The position numbers were made by a program, and so were the translations under genes. Positions 1,613 to 48,270 of a stretch of 52,743 bases of DNA are shown one piece after another. Positions within the stretch are counted from its first letter, which is position 1; the number at the start of each line of letters is the position of its first letter. Location of the stretch: positions 1 through 52,743 of the IMG/VR virus record IMGVR_UViG_3300031708_000013; one strand, 5' to 3'. The notes beneath the pieces were generated by a model that was not told the DNA's origin, did no database searches, and was given only the letters and a program-made list of their open reading frames with translations. The DNA comes from a virus.

Positions 1613-1900
1613 CTAATTGATTTTTTTCTTCTTGCATCTATCTTCTATAATTTTAGGTAAAACCGTTTGACATCTAAATTCAAAATAATCTCTGAAATAT
1701 TGAAAATAAAACGCCTCATCTTCATCAGAAATAGTTTCGTCGAACCCACCTGGTAAACCACTTAACATAAGAATACAAATATCGGCATATAATTCAATTA
1801 TATCATTAGGAATTACCTTGGCTTCTTCAAAACCAGGCACTAATTCCTCAAGAACTAAATTTCCCTTTAAAACTCTCTCTGGCCATTCCATTTTACTCAT
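1613..1900 (-). CDS. Hypothetical acidic protein, 95 aa
   Basis: MSKMEWPERVLKGNLVLEEL..., ending in a lysine-rich tail CKKKKIN. The start overlaps the recombinase stop (ATGA), so it is co-transcribed and coupled to it; this could make it an accessory factor, but nothing in the sequence shows a function. Confidence 0.6.
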   Translation of the reverse strand: MSKMEWPERVLKGNLVLEELVPGFEEAKVIPNDIIELYADICILMLSGLPGGFDETISDEDEAFYFQYFRDYFEFRCQTVLPKIIEDRCKKKKIN

Positions 1901-2484
1901 GCAAATATCGACCCTTCGTTAATGTTCTTAAAAAACGGATTTTTGGCCATACGAGTATATATTTCAGTTGAAGACATGTGTTTGTGACCAAGGTAATCCC
2001 TGATTGTCTCCATGGAAACACCCTTTTCACGTAAGAAGACCCCTTTTCCATGTCTAAACCCTCTCACATCAAACCATGTGTCAATATTTAGGTGCTGGTT
2101 AATGGATTGTATTAAAAAGTAATAGGCATATCTATTAAATGGTTTCCCTCTCTCAGTGGAAAAAACGGGATCATTTTTATCCTTTCCTTCTCCATAGAAT
2201 TCTAGCAAGAGTTCTTTTTCTATGGGAAGAAGGTCATGAATAAAATTTACTCCATTTTTCAAACGGTTAGCTTGAATAGTATTTCTGCTAAAATCAATAT
2301 CTCCCCATTTTAGATTGCATGCTTCACTTGATCTAAACCCATGGTTGTAGGTTAGCATCATCAGTAGCTTATTGCGTAAAGGGTAACGAGTCTTTTCCGC
2401 TGCCTTTAGAATAAGTTCTATTTCATCTTCATAGAGACATGGACGTAGTTTTTCTTTTGTTTTTTTTAATTTTTTGTATGCCAT
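1897..2484 (-). CDS. Short tyrosine recombinase, FimB/FimE-like
   Basis: 195 aa, essentially the catalytic domain only, the size of the FimB/FimE invertases rather than of a full phage integrase (~300-400 aa). Visible active-site residues: R51 (HGFRSSEA), K76 (RLKNG), R144 (RGFRHGKG), H167 (YLGHKHM) and the nucleophile Y176 (IYTRM). The first His of the usual HxxR box is Arg (R141). It could integrate the phage, resolve multimers of a circular genome, or invert a segment. No core-binding domain is present. Shares an ATGA junction with the next gene. Confidence 0.8.
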   Translation of the reverse strand: MAYKKLKKTKEKLRPCLYEDEIELILKAAEKTRYPLRNKLLMMLTYNHGFRSSEACNLKWGDIDFSRNTIQANRLKNGVNFIHDLLPIEKELLLEFYGEGKDKNDPVFSTERGKPFNRYAYYFLIQSINQHLNIDTWFDVRGFRHGKGVFLREKGVSMETIRDYLGHKHMSSTEIYTRMAKNPFFKNINEGSIFA

Positions 2485-3401: not shown

Positions 3402-3662
3402 TCATTCATAATGTGTCCACATTCTTACAACCCTAACGATTTTTTCTTCCTTGAATATATTGTAAACCAACCTGTGTTGAATATTAATCCTTCTAGAGTA
3501 ATAATTCTCACTAGATGTTAGTTTTTCATATGGAGGTGGGTTTCTATAAGGATTGTCCTGTAACAAATTCAATAGATTAAAAACCTTCTTTCTATGGGGA
3601 GATTTATCTATCTTAATAGAATCTTTCTCCGCTTGAGATGAAAATATTATTTTCCAGGCCAA
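3402..3662 (-). CDS. yoeB: YoeB/Txe-family ribosome-dependent mRNA interferase toxin
   Basis: 86 aa, the usual size. The core YYSRRINIQHRLVYNI and the C-terminal MWTHYE match YoeB. The catalytic set E46, R64 and H84 corresponds to E46/R65/H83 of the E. coli toxin. It cleaves mRNA at the ribosomal A site unless bound by YefM. The only usable start is TTG at 3662, overlapping the antitoxin gene by 16 nt, which would keep toxin translation low and coupled. Confidence 0.85.
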   Translation of the reverse strand: MAWKIIFSSQAEKDSIKIDKSPHRKKVFNLLNLLQDNPYRNPPPYEKLTSSENYYSRRINIQHRLVYNIFKEEKIVRVVRMWTHYE

Positions 3663-3901
3663 AACGCAATACTCTCTACACAGTCTTCATGAGGTTCATT
3701 TCCTCCGGCAATAATAGATTCCATCATTCCAGGAATAGAAGCCAAATATAGTGTTTCCTGTATAGATCTCCAATCTTCATCAGACACAATCACTGCACTA
3801 TATTCTTTTCCCTTAATAAAGATAGGTTCGTGATTTTCAGAAACATTCTTAACGATGTTGTAAATGTCTGCTCTAGCGTTGCTTATATTAACTACGTGCA
3901 T
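3647..3901 (-). CDS. yefM: YefM-family antitoxin
   Basis: 84 aa. The N-terminal Phd/YefM DNA-binding fold (NISNARADIYNIVKNVSENH) is followed by VIVSDEDWRSIQETLYL, which is diagnostic, and an acidic toxin-binding tail. Precedes yoeB, as is usual, with AAGGAG upstream of the ATG. Expected to repress its own promoter with YoeB as co-repressor; a palindrome lies in the promoter spacer. Confidence 0.88.
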   Translation of the reverse strand: MHVVNISNARADIYNIVKNVSENHEPIFIKGKEYSAVIVSDEDWRSIQETLYLASIPGMMESIIAGGNEPHEDCVESIAFWPGK

Positions 3902-19626: not shown

Positions 19627-22002
19627 TTAAACATAAGTTAGATTCCCTACAGAACTCAAAACAGAAAACTGAGTGTTTGCCGTAGTGCAAAGAAGATAGA
19701 CAACATCATATTGATTTGAAGAGGCTAACGAACCACCAGTTCCAGATGTGGTGGTAACATTACCAAAATTGATTTGTTGGCTGGCAGCTTGCCCAACTTT
19801 CCATCCTCCTGCCCCTACACCAGCAACAGCAAATACTGTACCCTGAGCGGCAGTAGCAGGGAGGGTTAAAGTTACGAGAGATCCGGAATTAGCAATATAG
19901 TATGTATTCACAGCCATTGTTGTAGATGAAGTCTGATTTGTCCACGTTGGACCAACAGATGTTGAAGCAATGGTTATGGACCCAGCAGAATTTGTAATGG
20001 TAATTCCGGTTCCTTGTGACAATGTAGCAGCAGTAGGAGTCCCAGAAGTAGATCCAATGATTAATTGACCATTAGTCATCGTTCCAGAAAAAACAGGAAC
20101 ACCAGCACTACTCGTTACCAGAACCGCACTATTAGCCGTAGTTAGACCGCCCACAGTATTGGTTGTTGAGGAATATAATAATTGACTCGCTGTGGTTGTT
20201 GCAGGATAAGTTGCCGTTGACCAAGCTGGAGTCGTAGAAGCCCCAGATAGAAGAACTTGATTTGCTGTTGATGTTCCTGCGAGAATTGCCCCTGCACTTG
20301 CGGTGCTATAAAAGATACCTCCGTTAGAAGCGGTAAGGTTGGCGTTCGTTCCTCCATGTGCGAGGGCGATTAGGGTTCCGTTCCAAACTCCCGTGGTTAT
20401 AGTTCCCAAGGTGGTTATGGAAGTCTGACCAACGTAACCAGTGTCAATAGATATAACGGGTGTCGTCGTACCAGTTGCCACATCGATTTGAAGTGCTGTG
20501 CCGGATACACTTGTTACCGTACCTGTTGAAGAAGGCTGCCAAGTGGGAAGGGCTGAGGCACCATTTGAGGTAAGAACCTGACCAGAACTTCCAACCCCAG
20601 ATACGTTTTGGAATGTACCTGTCGCTGTGGTACCTGCACAAATGAGAGAATAAGAGGTAAAGGTCGTATTACCAGTCCCTCCATTGGGAACCGTTATGGA
20701 TGTGCCATTCCAAACTCCACTGGTTATTGTTCCCAAAGTTGTAATAGAAGCTTGTCCGACATATGATGCTGAAATATCAATAACAGGAGCTGTTCCCCCC
20801 GTAGAGGTAATCCTATTTGTGGTACCACTTACGGAAAGGACATTGGAAGCTCCAAACTGAGTAAAGTTTATGGCATCTGTTCCAATTACTGTTACCGTCG
20901 CGGTTTGAATCCAAGCCGTATATTGTAGCGTTGATCCGTTGTCTAATAATATAAAGTCACCAGGGGTTATTTCTGTGGTGTTATTGTAGTTCGTGGCCCG
21001 TGTTAAAAGCCAATTCGTTGAACCCGTTCCAACAGTCGTAAGAGTGTATATACCGTTCTGGAATGAAGAGGATTGGTTCTTTACCAATACTCTTGAATTT
21101 ATAGGTGGCGAAACACCATCCGTAGAGAAAGCAACTTGCGTTCCACTATTCGTTAATGTCGCCCCAACGCCTGACACACCATTTGAATAGGTAGCTGTAA
21201 GGTTAGCTGTTGTTCCTGCATAGCAGGAAGGCTGAACTTGTAAACCAGCAGCTATATTATCCACATATTGCTTTGTTGCAGCTTGTAGAGATGTTGTTGG
21301 ATCAGCATTCAGGGTGACTGTTCCTGGAAAAATCACCGCATTTGGAATGGAAGCTGTAATAGATCCGGTTGCACTTGTTACAGTTATTTGATTGGCCGTT
21401 CCTGCAATTGCCGCAGCAGTAGGGTCACTTGAAGTCGTTCCTATTAAAACTTGACCAGCCCCTAAAACAATGGAGGTAAAAGGGCTTGTTCCTTCAGCTA
21501 TAAGAACTCCATGAATAGTCGGATTGGCGACCCCCGATCCTCCATACGTTGAAGAAATAACACTTCCATTCCAGACACCTGTTGCAATGGTTCCAAGGGT
21601 GGTTATGGAAGTCTGACCAACGTAACCCGCATCAATGGATATAACAGGGGTGGTAGTTCCAGTGGCCACATCAATTTGCAAAGCCGTTCCAGTAACGCTC
21701 GTAACTGTACCAGTGGTAGGGGTTGCCCAAGAAGGCAACATGGCCGCACCATTAGAGGTCAATACTTGTCCAGAGGTTCCAACCGTTGGGACATTTTCAA
21801 GAATACCTGACGATGTAGCTCCACCACATATTACTGTATAAGGCGTAAAGCTAGTGGCCCCCGTTCCGCCCCATTGCACATCTACGGGTGACGCTTCCCA
21901 AGCACCTGTGATGATAGGTACGCCAACTCCAAGCTCTACGAATCCACCAGGATAAGACCCATCTTCAAGAACTGTTAGAGCACTAAATGCACTATTTCCC
22001 AT
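19627..22002 (-). CDS. Long modular tail fibre, 791 aa
   Basis: Contains three copies of the ITTLGTI(A/T)(T/S)GVWNG module, two copies of the ALQIDVATGTTTPVISID linker and two SNGAxxLPxW stretches. One ~125-aa domain (RVLVKNQSSSFQNGIYTLTT, then ITPGDFILLDNG) is shared with 22012-23775. Ser/Thr/Gly-rich trimeric-fibre-like composition. The C-terminal part resembles a particle-binding or foot domain. GAGGATCT lies just before the ATG. Confidence 0.65.
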   Translation of the reverse strand: MGNSAFSALTVLEDGSYPGGFVELGVGVPIITGAWEASPVDVQWGGTGATSFTPYTVICGGATSSGILENVPTVGTSGQVLTSNGAAMLPSWATPTTGTVTSVTGTALQIDVATGTTTPVISIDAGYVGQTSITTLGTIATGVWNGSVISSTYGGSGVANPTIHGVLIAEGTSPFTSIVLGAGQVLIGTTSSDPTAAAIAGTANQITVTSATGSITASIPNAVIFPGTVTLNADPTTSLQAATKQYVDNIAAGLQVQPSCYAGTTANLTATYSNGVSGVGATLTNSGTQVAFSTDGVSPPINSRVLVKNQSSSFQNGIYTLTTVGTGSTNWLLTRATNYNNTTEITPGDFILLDNGSTLQYTAWIQTATVTVIGTDAINFTQFGASNVLSVSGTTNRITSTGGTAPVIDISASYVGQASITTLGTITSGVWNGTSITVPNGGTGNTTFTSYSLICAGTTATGTFQNVSGVGSSGQVLTSNGASALPTWQPSSTGTVTSVSGTALQIDVATGTTTPVISIDTGYVGQTSITTLGTITTGVWNGTLIALAHGGTNANLTASNGGIFYSTASAGAILAGTSTANQVLLSGASTTPAWSTATYPATTTASQLLYSSTTNTVGGLTTANSAVLVTSSAGVPVFSGTMTNGQLIIGSTSGTPTAATLSQGTGITITNSAGSITIASTSVGPTWTNQTSSTTMAVNTYYIANSGSLVTLTLPATAAQGTVFAVAGVGAGGWKVGQAASQQINFGNVTTTSGTGGSLASSNQYDVVYLLCTTANTQFSVLSSVGNLTYV

Positions 22003-29549: not shown

Positions 29550-29801
29550 ATGCAACTAAATCTTATAAAAATAGGAAACTCAAAAGGGTTTGTATTATCT
29601 CAAACCCTTATTAATCAATGCGGCTTCAAAAATGTTGTTGAAGTCGAATTAAAAGACCATTGTCTGATTTTAAAAGCGTCAGATCAGCCTAGACAAGGTT
29701 GGGATAAACTATTTCAATCAGAAGAAAAACCGGAAGATGATGAATTTAAAGATTTTCTTTGTCTTCAAAATAAATGGGATGAAGAAGAATGGGTGTGGTA
29801 A
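29550..29801 (+). CDS. mazE: MazE-like AbrB-fold antitoxin
   Basis: 83 aa. IKIGNSKGFVLSQTLINQCG, then VEVELKDHCLILKA is the swapped-hairpin (AbrB/MazE) DNA-binding domain. The acidic tail (EEKPEDDEFKDF...WDEEEWVW) binds the toxin. Overlaps mazF by 13 nt. Confidence 0.82.
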   Translation: MQLNLIKIGNSKGFVLSQTLINQCGFKNVVEVELKDHCLILKASDQPRQGWDKLFQSEEKPEDDEFKDFLCLQNKWDEEEWVW

Positions 29802-30121
29802 AACCGGAAAGATTTGACATATTTCTCACGACCCTTGATCCTACAAAAGGAGCAGAAATCAATAAGATTAGACCCTGTGTTGTTATTTCATCCAACGAGA
29901 TAAACTTTAATTTATCTACCATAATTATCGCTCCTATGACAACATCAATAAGAAAATATCCCTGTCGGGTAAATCTAAAATTTGATTCTAAAGAGGGACA
30001 GGTTGCTTTTGATCAAATGAGATCTGTTGACAAATCCAGACTTTTAAAAAAGTTGGGTTGCCTGGATAAAAAAACTCAACAACTTCTTACAGATAAATTG
30101 ATTGAAATGTTTAAAGGATAA
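29789..30121 (+). CDS. mazF: MazF/PemK-family endoribonuclease toxin
   Basis: 110 aa, full length. Conserved KIRPCVVISSNEIN (R28), IIIAPMTTSIRKYPCRV (T51/T52 area) and FDQMRSVDKSRLLKKLG. Ribosome-independent RNase blocked by MazE. Runs against the surrounding leftward late genes and converges with GroEL, so mazEF looks like a self-contained inserted unit. Confidence 0.85.
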   Translation: MGVVKPERFDIFLTTLDPTKGAEINKIRPCVVISSNEINFNLSTIIIAPMTTSIRKYPCRVNLKFDSKEGQVAFDQMRSVDKSRLLKKLGCLDKKTQQLLTDKLIEMFKG

Positions 30122-30149: not shown

Positions 30150-31838
30150 CTATGTTCGTATTTTAAGGGGATTAGACGGGCTTTGAAGTGCATTGAGGGT
30201 AATCTCGTTTTCTTCAATCAATACGGCCTCAGTGGTCAGGAATAGCCCAGCAATCGACGCGGCATCTTCCAATGCCGTGATAACAACCTTGGTAGGGTCA
30301 ATAATACCCCAATCAATCATATCTACGATATAGCCCTTTTGAGCATCATAACCGATACTGAATTCACTCCCTTCAAGATCTTTCTCGCAGATATCTTGTA
30401 TTTTTTCATAAAGTAACCCCGAATTTAACAATATTTGTACAAATGGTCGGACTAAAGATCTCAATAAAATACACTCTCCTTCTATTAAATTAAGACCAGG
30501 CAATTTTATTCCACCCATCCCATTATCCTTAATATTCTTTTTATACTGTGTATCAATATCAAAATCCATCCTAGCTCTATAAAGAGCAATACCGCCCCCA
30601 GGTAAGATTCCATCTTGTAAAGCGGCTCTAGTCGCATGGACGGCATCCTCAACACGATCTTTACGCTCTTTCATCTCGAACTCTGTGGTTCCCCCTATTT
30701 TAATAATGGCAATCCCATTAGTGAGACGTGCATAGCGTTCTTCATATCTCTTCTTCAACTCTTCATGTTCAGCCTTGGCAATCTCATCTTTCAGGTAAGA
30801 ACACCTATTATCGAAATCCGCCTTTTCTCCCTGACCGTCTATTATCGTCGTCTTGTCTTGAGAGATGATGACCTTTTTAGCTCTTCCTAATGTGCCTCGC
30901 GCAACATTCTGAAGCTTAATTCCACCGTCTTCTCCTATAATCTTGGTTCCTGTAACAACGGCAATGTCATCTAATATTTCTTTACGAAACTCGCCGAAGG
31001 AAGGGGATTTAACTGCACACACTTTAAGCCCACGTTTAATTTTATTAAGAATAAGGGTTTGAAGGGATTCTGACTCTACATCTTCGGCTATTATAAGGAG
31101 AGATTCATTTTCTCTCATGGTAGCTTCTACCAGAGAAAGAATCATGGCCATACCAGCAATCTTGTTGTCATAAATAAGGATATAAGGGTTTTCTAGCTCA
31201 CAGATCATTTTGTTAGGATTGGTTACAAAATAGGGGGATATATATCCTCTATCGAGTTCTAGACCTTCAACGTATCTTACTTCTGTCTTTCCATTGGGGG
31301 AATCTTCAAGAGAGATGACGCCTTCTTTGCCTATCTTCTGGAATGTTTCAGAAATAAGTTTTCCAATTTCAGCATCTCCATTGGCAGAAATAGTAGCTAT
31401 TTGTTCAATTTCAATTGGATTAGAGATGACCCTAGATTTTGATTTTAGGTATTCTATAGCATAACTGGTTCCCCTATCTATTCCTCTTTTAAGGTCAATA
31501 GGGTTTTCCCCGTCATCAATGGCTTTCATTCCCTCATTAATGATATGTTGGGCTAAGACGGTTGCGGTGGTTGTCCCATCACCTGCAATATCACAAGTCT
31601 TCATGGCAACTTGCCGGATAAGTTCAGCCCCTACGCTTTCAAACTCATCATAAAGCTCTACTTCCTTCGCAACGGAAACACCGTCCTTTGTAATGCGGAT
31701 TGGGTAATGCGTATTCTTAATGATAACATTTCTGCCTTTTGGCCCTAACGTTACTTTAACGGCGTCAGCTATTTTATTGACACCAATAAGAATCTTTTCC
31801 CGTCCTTCTTTTCCAAAGGCCAGATGTTTAGGAAGCAT
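30150..31838 (-). CDS. groEL: Phage-encoded GroEL (Hsp60) chaperonin
   Basis: 562 aa, all three GroEL domains. Key residues fall on E. coli numbering: D52 (KDGVSVAKE), D87 in GDGTTTATVLA and D398 in VEDAVHATRAA for ATP binding/hydrolysis; Y199, Y203 and F204 in RGYISPYF and L234, V237, L259 and I263 for substrate and co-chaperonin binding. Differences: an insertion after ~421 (equatorial domain) and no GGM-repeat tail, ending NPLKIRT. Good GAGG site. Lies in the assembly operon with scaffold and a GroES-like gene; the likely client is the capsid protein. Confidence 0.93.
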   Translation of the reverse strand: MLPKHLAFGKEGREKILIGVNKIADAVKVTLGPKGRNVIIKNTHYPIRITKDGVSVAKEVELYDEFESVGAELIRQVAMKTCDIAGDGTTTATVLAQHIINEGMKAIDDGENPIDLKRGIDRGTSYAIEYLKSKSRVISNPIEIEQIATISANGDAEIGKLISETFQKIGKEGVISLEDSPNGKTEVRYVEGLELDRGYISPYFVTNPNKMICELENPYILIYDNKIAGMAMILSLVEATMRENESLLIIAEDVESESLQTLILNKIKRGLKVCAVKSPSFGEFRKEILDDIAVVTGTKIIGEDGGIKLQNVARGTLGRAKKVIISQDKTTIIDGQGEKADFDNRCSYLKDEIAKAEHEELKKRYEERYARLTNGIAIIKIGGTTEFEMKERKDRVEDAVHATRAALQDGILPGGGIALYRARMDFDIDTQYKKNIKDNGMGGIKLPGLNLIEGECILLRSLVRPFVQILLNSGLLYEKIQDICEKDLEGSEFSIGYDAQKGYIVDMIDWGIIDPTKVVITALEDAASIAGLFLTTEAVLIEENEITLNALQSPSNPLKIRT

Positions 31839-47228: not shown

Positions 47229-47356
47229 CTAAAAATCAATCTCTGCAAATCATTGTTATCTGTTATTAGCATCTTAATTTTTCTTCCACAATATGGAATT
47301 TGAGTTAATCCCGTGATTTATCAACAAACACCACACTGCTAAGCAATGTATTTGGT

Positions 47357-48118
47357 TCATGCGGCCATACGAGATGGTTGGAGACTATCCAGGTATCTTG
47401 TGGCAGCTATAAACGATGGTTCGCCCTCCTTTCCAGCTAGAACGGTTTTCAAAGCATCAAGAATCAGATCGTTAGGTTCTGAAGGTAGATCGATTGTGTC
47501 GCATGGCTTTTCAACAATGGGGATGGTATGCTCTTGGGCTACCCCTCTTTCCACAAAGTTATCCACAATTTTAGAAATATTCTCTCTAACTTCATGTCGA
47601 TAAGGTCGGCGTAAGGTGTTTGGTTTCCGATATATCGGTTTCTTGGGAGGGTAATCTCTAGGCGAGTTATCCACAGATTTTGAAATCCCAACTGTATTAA
47701 TACAAGGTAATGGGTAGGTAATGGGTAGGTTGGGTGCAGATTTTTCACCCCTGGGGTGCAGATTTTTCACCTCTAGGGATGCAGATTTTTCACCCCCCAA
47801 ATGGTTTTCAGATAGGTTATCCACACATTGTTGTTGTTCAAGGATTGCCTCAAGAAGCTCTATATTTATTCTATAGTGAGCAGGTGATCGAGGAGTATCA
47901 GCTTGGGTACAAATCATGTAGTTACCCGCCAACGTCTCATTACGCATGTTAATTATGGTGCGTACTGAAAGATCAAATTTTTCTGCTAATGTGGCATTGG
48001 AAACCCGAATGCCCGTTCCATCTGAGTTAGCGTATTTCAGCATATAAAAAAGAAATGTCTTTTGGGTATTGTTGAGAGATTTGTTGTCTACGATCAGGTT
48101 CATGAGTTTAAAGCACAT
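47357..48118 (-). CDS. Replication initiator-like protein (lambda O type layout), 253 aa
   Basis: The N-terminus is a winged helix-turn-helix (LNNTQKTFLFYMLKYANSDG, then VSNATLAEKFDLSVRTIINM) as in phage replication O / DnaD-like proteins. The middle and C-terminus are low-complexity. Within the middle, DNA-level repeats and three DnaA boxes are embedded (see origin feature), the same arrangement as lambda O with its internal ori. VDN recurs three times because TGTGGATAA boxes are read in the same frame. Confidence 0.65.
   Translation of the reverse strand: MCFKLMNLIVDNKSLNNTQKTFLFYMLKYANSDGTGIRVSNATLAEKFDLSVRTIINMRNETLAGNYMICTQADTPRSPAHYRINIELLEAILEQQQCVDNLSENHLGGEKSASLEVKNLHPRGEKSAPNLPITYPLPCINTVGISKSVDNSPRDYPPKKPIYRKPNTLRRPYRHEVRENISKIVDNFVERGVAQEHTIPIVEKPCDTIDLPSEPNDLILDALKTVLAGKEGEPSFIAATRYLDSLQPSRMAA
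47559..47825. other. Candidate replication origin: DnaA boxes and iterons inside the initiator gene
   Basis: Perfect TTATCCACA boxes at 47559-47567, 47667-47675 and 47817-47825, all in one orientation. Between boxes two and three, TGCAGATTTTTCACC is repeated at 47735-47749, 47757-47771 and 47780-47794 (22- and 23-bp spacing). Next to these, TAATGGGTAGG is repeated twice (47708-47729). The middle iteron is read in another codon frame (VKNLH) than the outer two (GEKSA), so selection acts on DNA. Confidence 0.75.
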
Positions 48119-48157
48119 TGATTTTCCTAAAATTAAAAAAAGTTTAAATTATATGGA

Positions 48158-48270
48158 AAAAGTACTTGAAAAATATCTTCGGCTAAGATATAACCCTATA
48201 TATAGTTAGAGGGTGATTTGTTTTTGTTTCAAGCTTTGTTTCAAGCACTTTTCTGTTTCAAGCACTTTTC
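48158..48270. repeat. TTTCAAGCACTTTT repeats, possible operator sites
   Basis: Two perfect 16-bp copies (48238-48253, 48255-48270), one partial (48226-48234) and one inverted near-copy AAAAGTACTTGAAA (48158-48171), which overlaps the -35 box of the small-RNA promoter. Could also be repressor-binding sites in the early control region. Confidence 0.5.
48166..48194 (+). promoter_or_regulatory. Predicted promoter of the small antisense RNA
   Basis: TTGAAA (48166-48171), a 17-bp spacer and TATAAC (48189-48194, 5 of 6 consensus). The predicted start near 48201. No protein gene follows before the terminator at ~48283-48313. Confidence 0.6.

Follow-up and report, generated by a model that had tools for sequence, protein, structure and literature searches.

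An initiator gene with repeats in its linker

The window, i.e., the whole 52.7-kb stretch of viral DNA that was analysed, carries a minus-strand gene for a predicted replication initiator, in which three iterons are encoded between a winged-helix domain and a set of C-terminal helices, with exact DnaA boxes on either side of them. The features of this locus are the following:

47357-48118, minus strand: initiator gene, 253 aa (profile matches and AlphaFold)
Residues 1-100 of the initiator: winged-helix DNA-binding domain (AlphaFold, pLDDT 84-97)
Residues about 105-172: linker, predicted to be disordered (pLDDT about 45-65), in which the iterons are encoded
Residues 174-250: C-terminal helices (AlphaFold)
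47559-47567, plus strand: exact DnaA box TTATCCACA, at a VDNF position orthologous to one in the relative L325
47667-47675, plus strand: exact DnaA box TTATCCACA
47705-47726, no strand assigned: 11-bp tandem repeat AGGTAATGGGT, two copies of one helical turn each, abutting the iterons
47732-47753, minus strand: iteron, third on the coding strand; core 47735-47749, frame 0, reads GEKSAP
47754-47775, minus strand: middle iteron; core 47757-47771, shifted frame, reads VKNLH
47777-47798, minus strand: iteron, first on the coding strand; core 47780-47794, frame 0, reads GEKSAS
47817-47825, plus strand: exact DnaA box TTATCCACA, on the opposite side of the iterons from the other two
48127-48176, no strand assigned: 50-bp segment of lowest stability in the 46.5-49 kb interval, just upstream of the initiator gene

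The N-terminus of the protein matches the PHROG 678 profile, "replication initiation O-like" (E 1.8e-6), and its sole Pfam match is HTH_36, also N-terminal, with an E value (1.3e-4) that falls below the curated cutoff; Phage_rep_O, the Pfam family of lambda O, is not matched. AlphaFold predicts a winged-helix fold; among viral structures this fold matches phage proteins with an HTH domain, and a search of PDB folds returned only generic winged-helix regulators with E above 0.001. No close homologue was found in viral contigs, plasmid records, or 50,697 phage records. The blastn hits H2-H6 (Listeria, Lactococcus, and Salmonella records; E 0.6-7) were discarded as chance matches, the inspected ones lying outside replication genes. 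Overall identity to members of the HTH_36/PHROG O-like family is 10-24%, and the protein is, by its profile match and predicted fold, a remote member of these phage initiators, the HTH_36 part of this assignment being sub-cutoff.

The three iteron cores are copies of an identical 15-mer, GGTGAAAAATCTGCA (coding strand), set at steps of 22 and 23 bp within one coding region, just as the sequence-only reading had described them, and no further copy is present elsewhere in the 52.7-kb record, even with one mismatch allowed. They lie in frames 0, 2, and 0, and since the middle copy reads VKNLH and both its neighbours GEKSA, it is the DNA and not the peptide that is conserved. When the protein was held fixed and its codons were redrawn from phage usage, three copies of any 15-mer arose in 0 of 20,000 trials; the repeat pattern is not due to chance, and this result, together with the differing peptides encoded by the same DNA, shows that the repeats are under selection at the DNA level, as had been proposed. 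The full unit on the coding strand, GGGGTGAAAAATCTGCACCCC, is a hyphenated dyad, GGGGTG-N9-CACCCC, so that the gene contains within its own coding sequence multiple inverted-repeat iterons about two helical turns apart, as expected of a lambda-type origin. The adjoining 11-bp repeat AGGTAATGGGT is possibly part of the same origin.

The three DnaA boxes, also correctly noted earlier as exact and in one orientation, are separated by gaps of 108 and 150 and share a single codon frame, each encoding Val-Asp-Asn; the earlier claim that the repeats ignore the codon frame hence holds for the iterons, but not for these boxes. Only two other exact copies of TTATCCACA occur in the whole window, at 21257 and 23947.

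With a large terminase, a portal, SU10-type adaptors, a phage integrase, RusA, and a chaperonin encoded in the record, the element is an integrase-bearing tailed phage and not evidently a plasmid. Among the ORFs scanned, a set that falls short of all small ORFs, neither a plasmid Rep_3/RepA or partition family nor a phage helicase, loader, or polymerase was recognised, and terminal repeats of the record were not found. The suggestion that the repeats look like a plasmid origin finds no support in this gene content or in the placement of the initiator in phage O-like families. Several other genes of the record can be mentioned. The chaperonin (30150-31838, minus strand) is of the GroEL type (Cpn60, E 5e-61), and in Roseobacter phage CRP-901 a GroES is annotated amid comparable head genes; the terminase of this phage is 42% identical and its replication gene set is different. 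Two overlapping ORFs at 29550-30121 (plus strand), within the minus-strand structural block, resemble by eye a MazE/MazF-type antitoxin-toxin pair, and a RelE-like toxin (PHROG 1213, E 2.5e-10) is encoded at 3402-3901 (minus strand) with an antitoxin-like ORF adjacent. The integrase ORF (1897-2484, minus strand), of 195 aa only, spans the catalytic domain and could represent either a truncated gene or a recombinase of short form.

Repeats in related initiator genes

A blind search of 2.9 million viral contigs for the exact 17-mer GGTGAAAAATCTGCACC returned 18 loci, most of them inside winged-helix O-like genes and immediately behind the HTH. Tandem forms of the word are found across phages and genome contigs labelled Gammaproteobacteria and Gemmatales. 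In two of these loci, tandem copies occupy all three frames of one gene, reading GAKSA/CKNCT/VQNLH in L048 and CKICT/GAKSA/VQNLH in L057, and a saliva phage, with 83% DNA identity over 66 bp of the array, is frame-alternating too. Four loci (L010, L021, L054, and L058) in which the word or the arrays lie outside any winged-helix gene were left out of the counts; in two of them, L054 and L058, which are Chloroflexi MAGs, arrays of GTGCAAAATTTGCAC-like units recur at 24 bp where no winged-helix gene is recognisable.

To avoid the bias of selecting by the word, 160 loci were chosen by their N-terminal domain alone, giving 104 genes at 80% identity, 99 of which were long enough, and near-identical 14-mers 17-27 bp apart were sought just behind this domain. 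Such repeats were present in 81 of the 99 genes, against 14.2 expected from synonymous shuffling, with a mode of 22 bp; the controls gave 0 of 99 inside the domain and 2 of 100 in downstream DNA. Distances that are not multiples of 3 made up 101 of 175 (about 2 expected), a frame-breaking share of 58% compared with about 11% under the synonymous null. Frame-independent iterons behind the winged-helix domain are thus a general property of this family, of which 34 of 36 members match a PHROG "replication initiation protein" profile. The words themselves vary from phage to phage; hyphenated dyads such as GTGACACAGTGTCAC, GTGTAAAAATTACAC, and TATCAACAAAGTTGATA were detected in 31 of the 81 genes at p<0.05, and many relatives show little dyad symmetry. 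The word of the window falls into a GTG(A/C)A-N5-T(G/T)CAC class of iterons. Separately, the winged-helix genes of L034, L045, L046, and L052 contain 15-bp repeats GTGCAGAATTTGCAC in codon register, joined to an iteron-like pair, which looks like a different repeat regime.

The nearest relative is L325, a 54.7-kb phage whose terminase and AAA protein are 76% and 79% identical to those of the window and in which gene order around the initiator is kept. Identity between the two initiators is 28% over the winged-helix part and 38% over the C-terminal part. The word GAAAAATCTGCA is gone in L325 and GAGCATGGTGCAAA is present instead, as three units spaced 22/22 bp apart, of which the third has partly diverged, and which lie in frames 1, 2, and 0; only half-sites, not full dyads, are evident in them. 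Two exact DnaA boxes of the same orientation flank this array (P = 0.008), one being orthologous to the box at 47559 (87% DNA identity over 45 bp), and all three exact DnaA boxes of the L325 genome lie within 1.5 kb. The binding domain and the word have thus changed together with the architecture kept; this comparison of two syntenic phages shows co-turnover of DNA-binding domain and iterons, and retention of DnaA boxes in this one relative.

A candidate origin inside the initiator gene

We propose that the gene at 47357-48118 (minus strand) contains its own lambda-type candidate origin, probably aided by host DnaA, and assign this reading a probability of roughly 0.82. The winged-helix N-terminal domain would bind the three dyad-symmetric iterons as dimers which, because the iterons are phased about two helical turns apart, would be stacked on one face of the DNA, much like the O-some of lambda. 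The array sits in a linker-coding stretch where nearly any peptide is presumably tolerated, so that the DNA word could be preserved even as the codon frame drifts. At the flanking boxes, bound host DnaA would probably aid DNA opening and recruitment of the host helicase, as at iteron plasmids.

Participation of host DnaA is the least certain step of this mechanism, and we judge it to be moderately favoured. The iterons could form the origin and the DnaA boxes be coincidental Val-Asp-Asn codons, or host-regulatory sites, with no role in initiation. All the boxes do read VDN in one frame, and permuting only the codons of the gene itself, a stricter null, leaves P = 0.011 for three of them. In addition, a family-wide role for such boxes had to be rejected, as exact ones were found in 0 of the 104 genes of the broad initiator family and relaxed ones were below expectation; the boxes are therefore an add-on of the phage group of the window and not a plasmid signature. 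Against coincidence, three boxes were obtained in only 3 of 20,000 synonymous redraws with phage codon usage, and dinucleotide shuffling of the gene did not give two in any of 20,000 trials; the flanking pair in L325 argues in the same direction, as do the boxes inside the arrays of L005 and L030, two unrelated initiators that are the scattered cases in which boxes occur otherwise. A purely coincidental or host-regulatory nature of the boxes is the less likely reading, though a sizeable one, and their suggested membership of the origin gains from the comparison with L325.

The array could also be an autoregulatory or silencing site, bound by the initiator to repress its own operon or for incompatibility or copy control, with the true origin elsewhere. 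Plasmid iterons are known to act as control sites too, and the AT-rich divergent intergenic region just upstream contains, at 48221-48270, a 17-bp tandem repeat TGTTTCAAGCACTTTTC in two copies and a partial third, which could be an operator or a second binding site. Such a role is nonetheless improbable, given that about 320 bp of coding sequence precede the array, which is distant from any promoter, that its position relative to the winged-helix domain is that of the lambda origin, and that DnaA boxes occur on both of its flanks.

GC skew, suggested earlier as a check, gave a raw cumulative G-C minimum at 47,336, adjoining the initiator gene, but the detrended minimum lies elsewhere, at 12.6 kb, and therefore skew supports an origin weakly; the raw minimum could be explained by divergent transcription at 48.1-48.7 kb alone. 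The segment at 48127-48176 is a weak candidate for an unwinding element, lying >300 bp from the iterons, and the iteron stretch itself is more stable than average.

Still less probable than an autoregulatory role is a repeat selected at the protein level, with GEKSAP/VKNLH as a linker peptide and DNA identity left by recent tandem duplication. In-frame copies do exist in many relatives (steps 21, 24, and 45, yielding SEKSAPPPSEKSAP), and the varying array length (L047) indicates that tandem duplication occurs. However, in the window, L022, L048, L057, L325, and others, translation of the same DNA gives unrelated peptides, the excess of frame-breaking distances is large, the linker is predicted to be disordered, and L325 has replaced the word and kept spacing and frame-independence. 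Finally, functional DNA elements can reside inside prophage genes for DNA-binding proteins, as does the self-immunity element aba in bstA (PMC8585504), but another in-gene element of this kind has next to no chance here, since aba is one element of 63 bp, located where bstA begins and bearing short CCCGCC repeats at its ends, and not an iteron array (PMC8585504), and the array of the window is internal to a gene whose family profiles are those of replication initiators.

Extended beyond the window, the proposal of an in-gene origin would be that winged-helix phage initiators broadly use their disordered linker as protected ground for an origin, with a private word in any frame and with domain and word exchanged as lock and key, and that the phage group of the window is a hybrid that adds host DnaA, combining lambda-type and plasmid-type initiation in one gene; to this wider model we would give even odds. 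Phage origins and initiator specificities could then be read from sequence alone, from a repeat that recurs at about 22 bp, whatever the codon frame, behind a winged-helix domain. The pattern is also a clear example from nature of bases that serve both a DNA signal and a protein, the signal sitting where the protein is disordered, and the differing words provide a direct test of the co-evolution of initiator and origin specificity and of phage replication compatibility. The DnaA boxes suggest a phage without a recognisable helicase loader that possibly borrows the host initiator.

Comparison with known origins

The principle of an origin within the initiator gene is already established, for lambda (PMC7466680) and for SPP1 (PMC6316719). 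Two things are new, namely how general frame-independent iterons are and the addition of DnaA boxes, and priority is claimed for neither: no literature on either this generality or an in-gene iteron/DnaA hybrid was found in a search that covered few subscription journals, and a search for the iteron word itself returned no relevant paper.

In lambda, the origin consists of inverted-repeat iterons in the middle of the initiator gene O (PMC7466680), and the four annotated iterons, taken as a control, lie at steps of 20, 24, and 23 and in frames 0, 2, 2, and 1. As they fall in three frames, frame-blindness is a property of lambda too, and the parallel with lambda O drawn by the sequence-only reading is borne out: both systems have inverted-repeat iterons mid-gene, at 20-24-bp steps and in varied codon frames. 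The window differs in its protein, which is outside Phage_rep_O, in its iteron word, in having no clear adjacent AT-rich tract and no recognised neighbouring P-like loader, and in its three in-gene DnaA boxes, of which lambda O has none. In SPP1, direct repeats bound by the replisome organizer lie within its own gene, gene 38, at oriL (PMC6316719), an arrangement like that of the window; unlike the window, SPP1 is described as encoding a helicase and a loader of its own and as having both a second origin and a noted AT-rich element, and the sections of that source used here make no mention of DnaA boxes (PMC6316719).

The HTH_36/PHROG O-like initiators (L011, L022, L048, L057, L088, and others) likewise have a winged helix with a frame-independent array of 20-24-bp steps behind it; the window protein is remote from them and comes with DnaA boxes that nearly all of the others lack. 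Iteron plasmids, in turn, combine iterons and DnaA boxes and rely on DnaA-assisted helicase delivery (PMC4980987). RK2 oriV, P1, F, and pSC101 resemble the window in having iterons for a winged-helix Rep together with DnaA boxes (PMC4980987), a combination found in both the window and L325. In contrast to the RK2/P1 type, plasmid Rep and partition/maintenance families were not found among the window ORFs scanned, and, in contrast to plasmid origins, iterons and DnaA boxes of the window both lie in the coding sequence of the initiator, in a tailed phage with an integrase.
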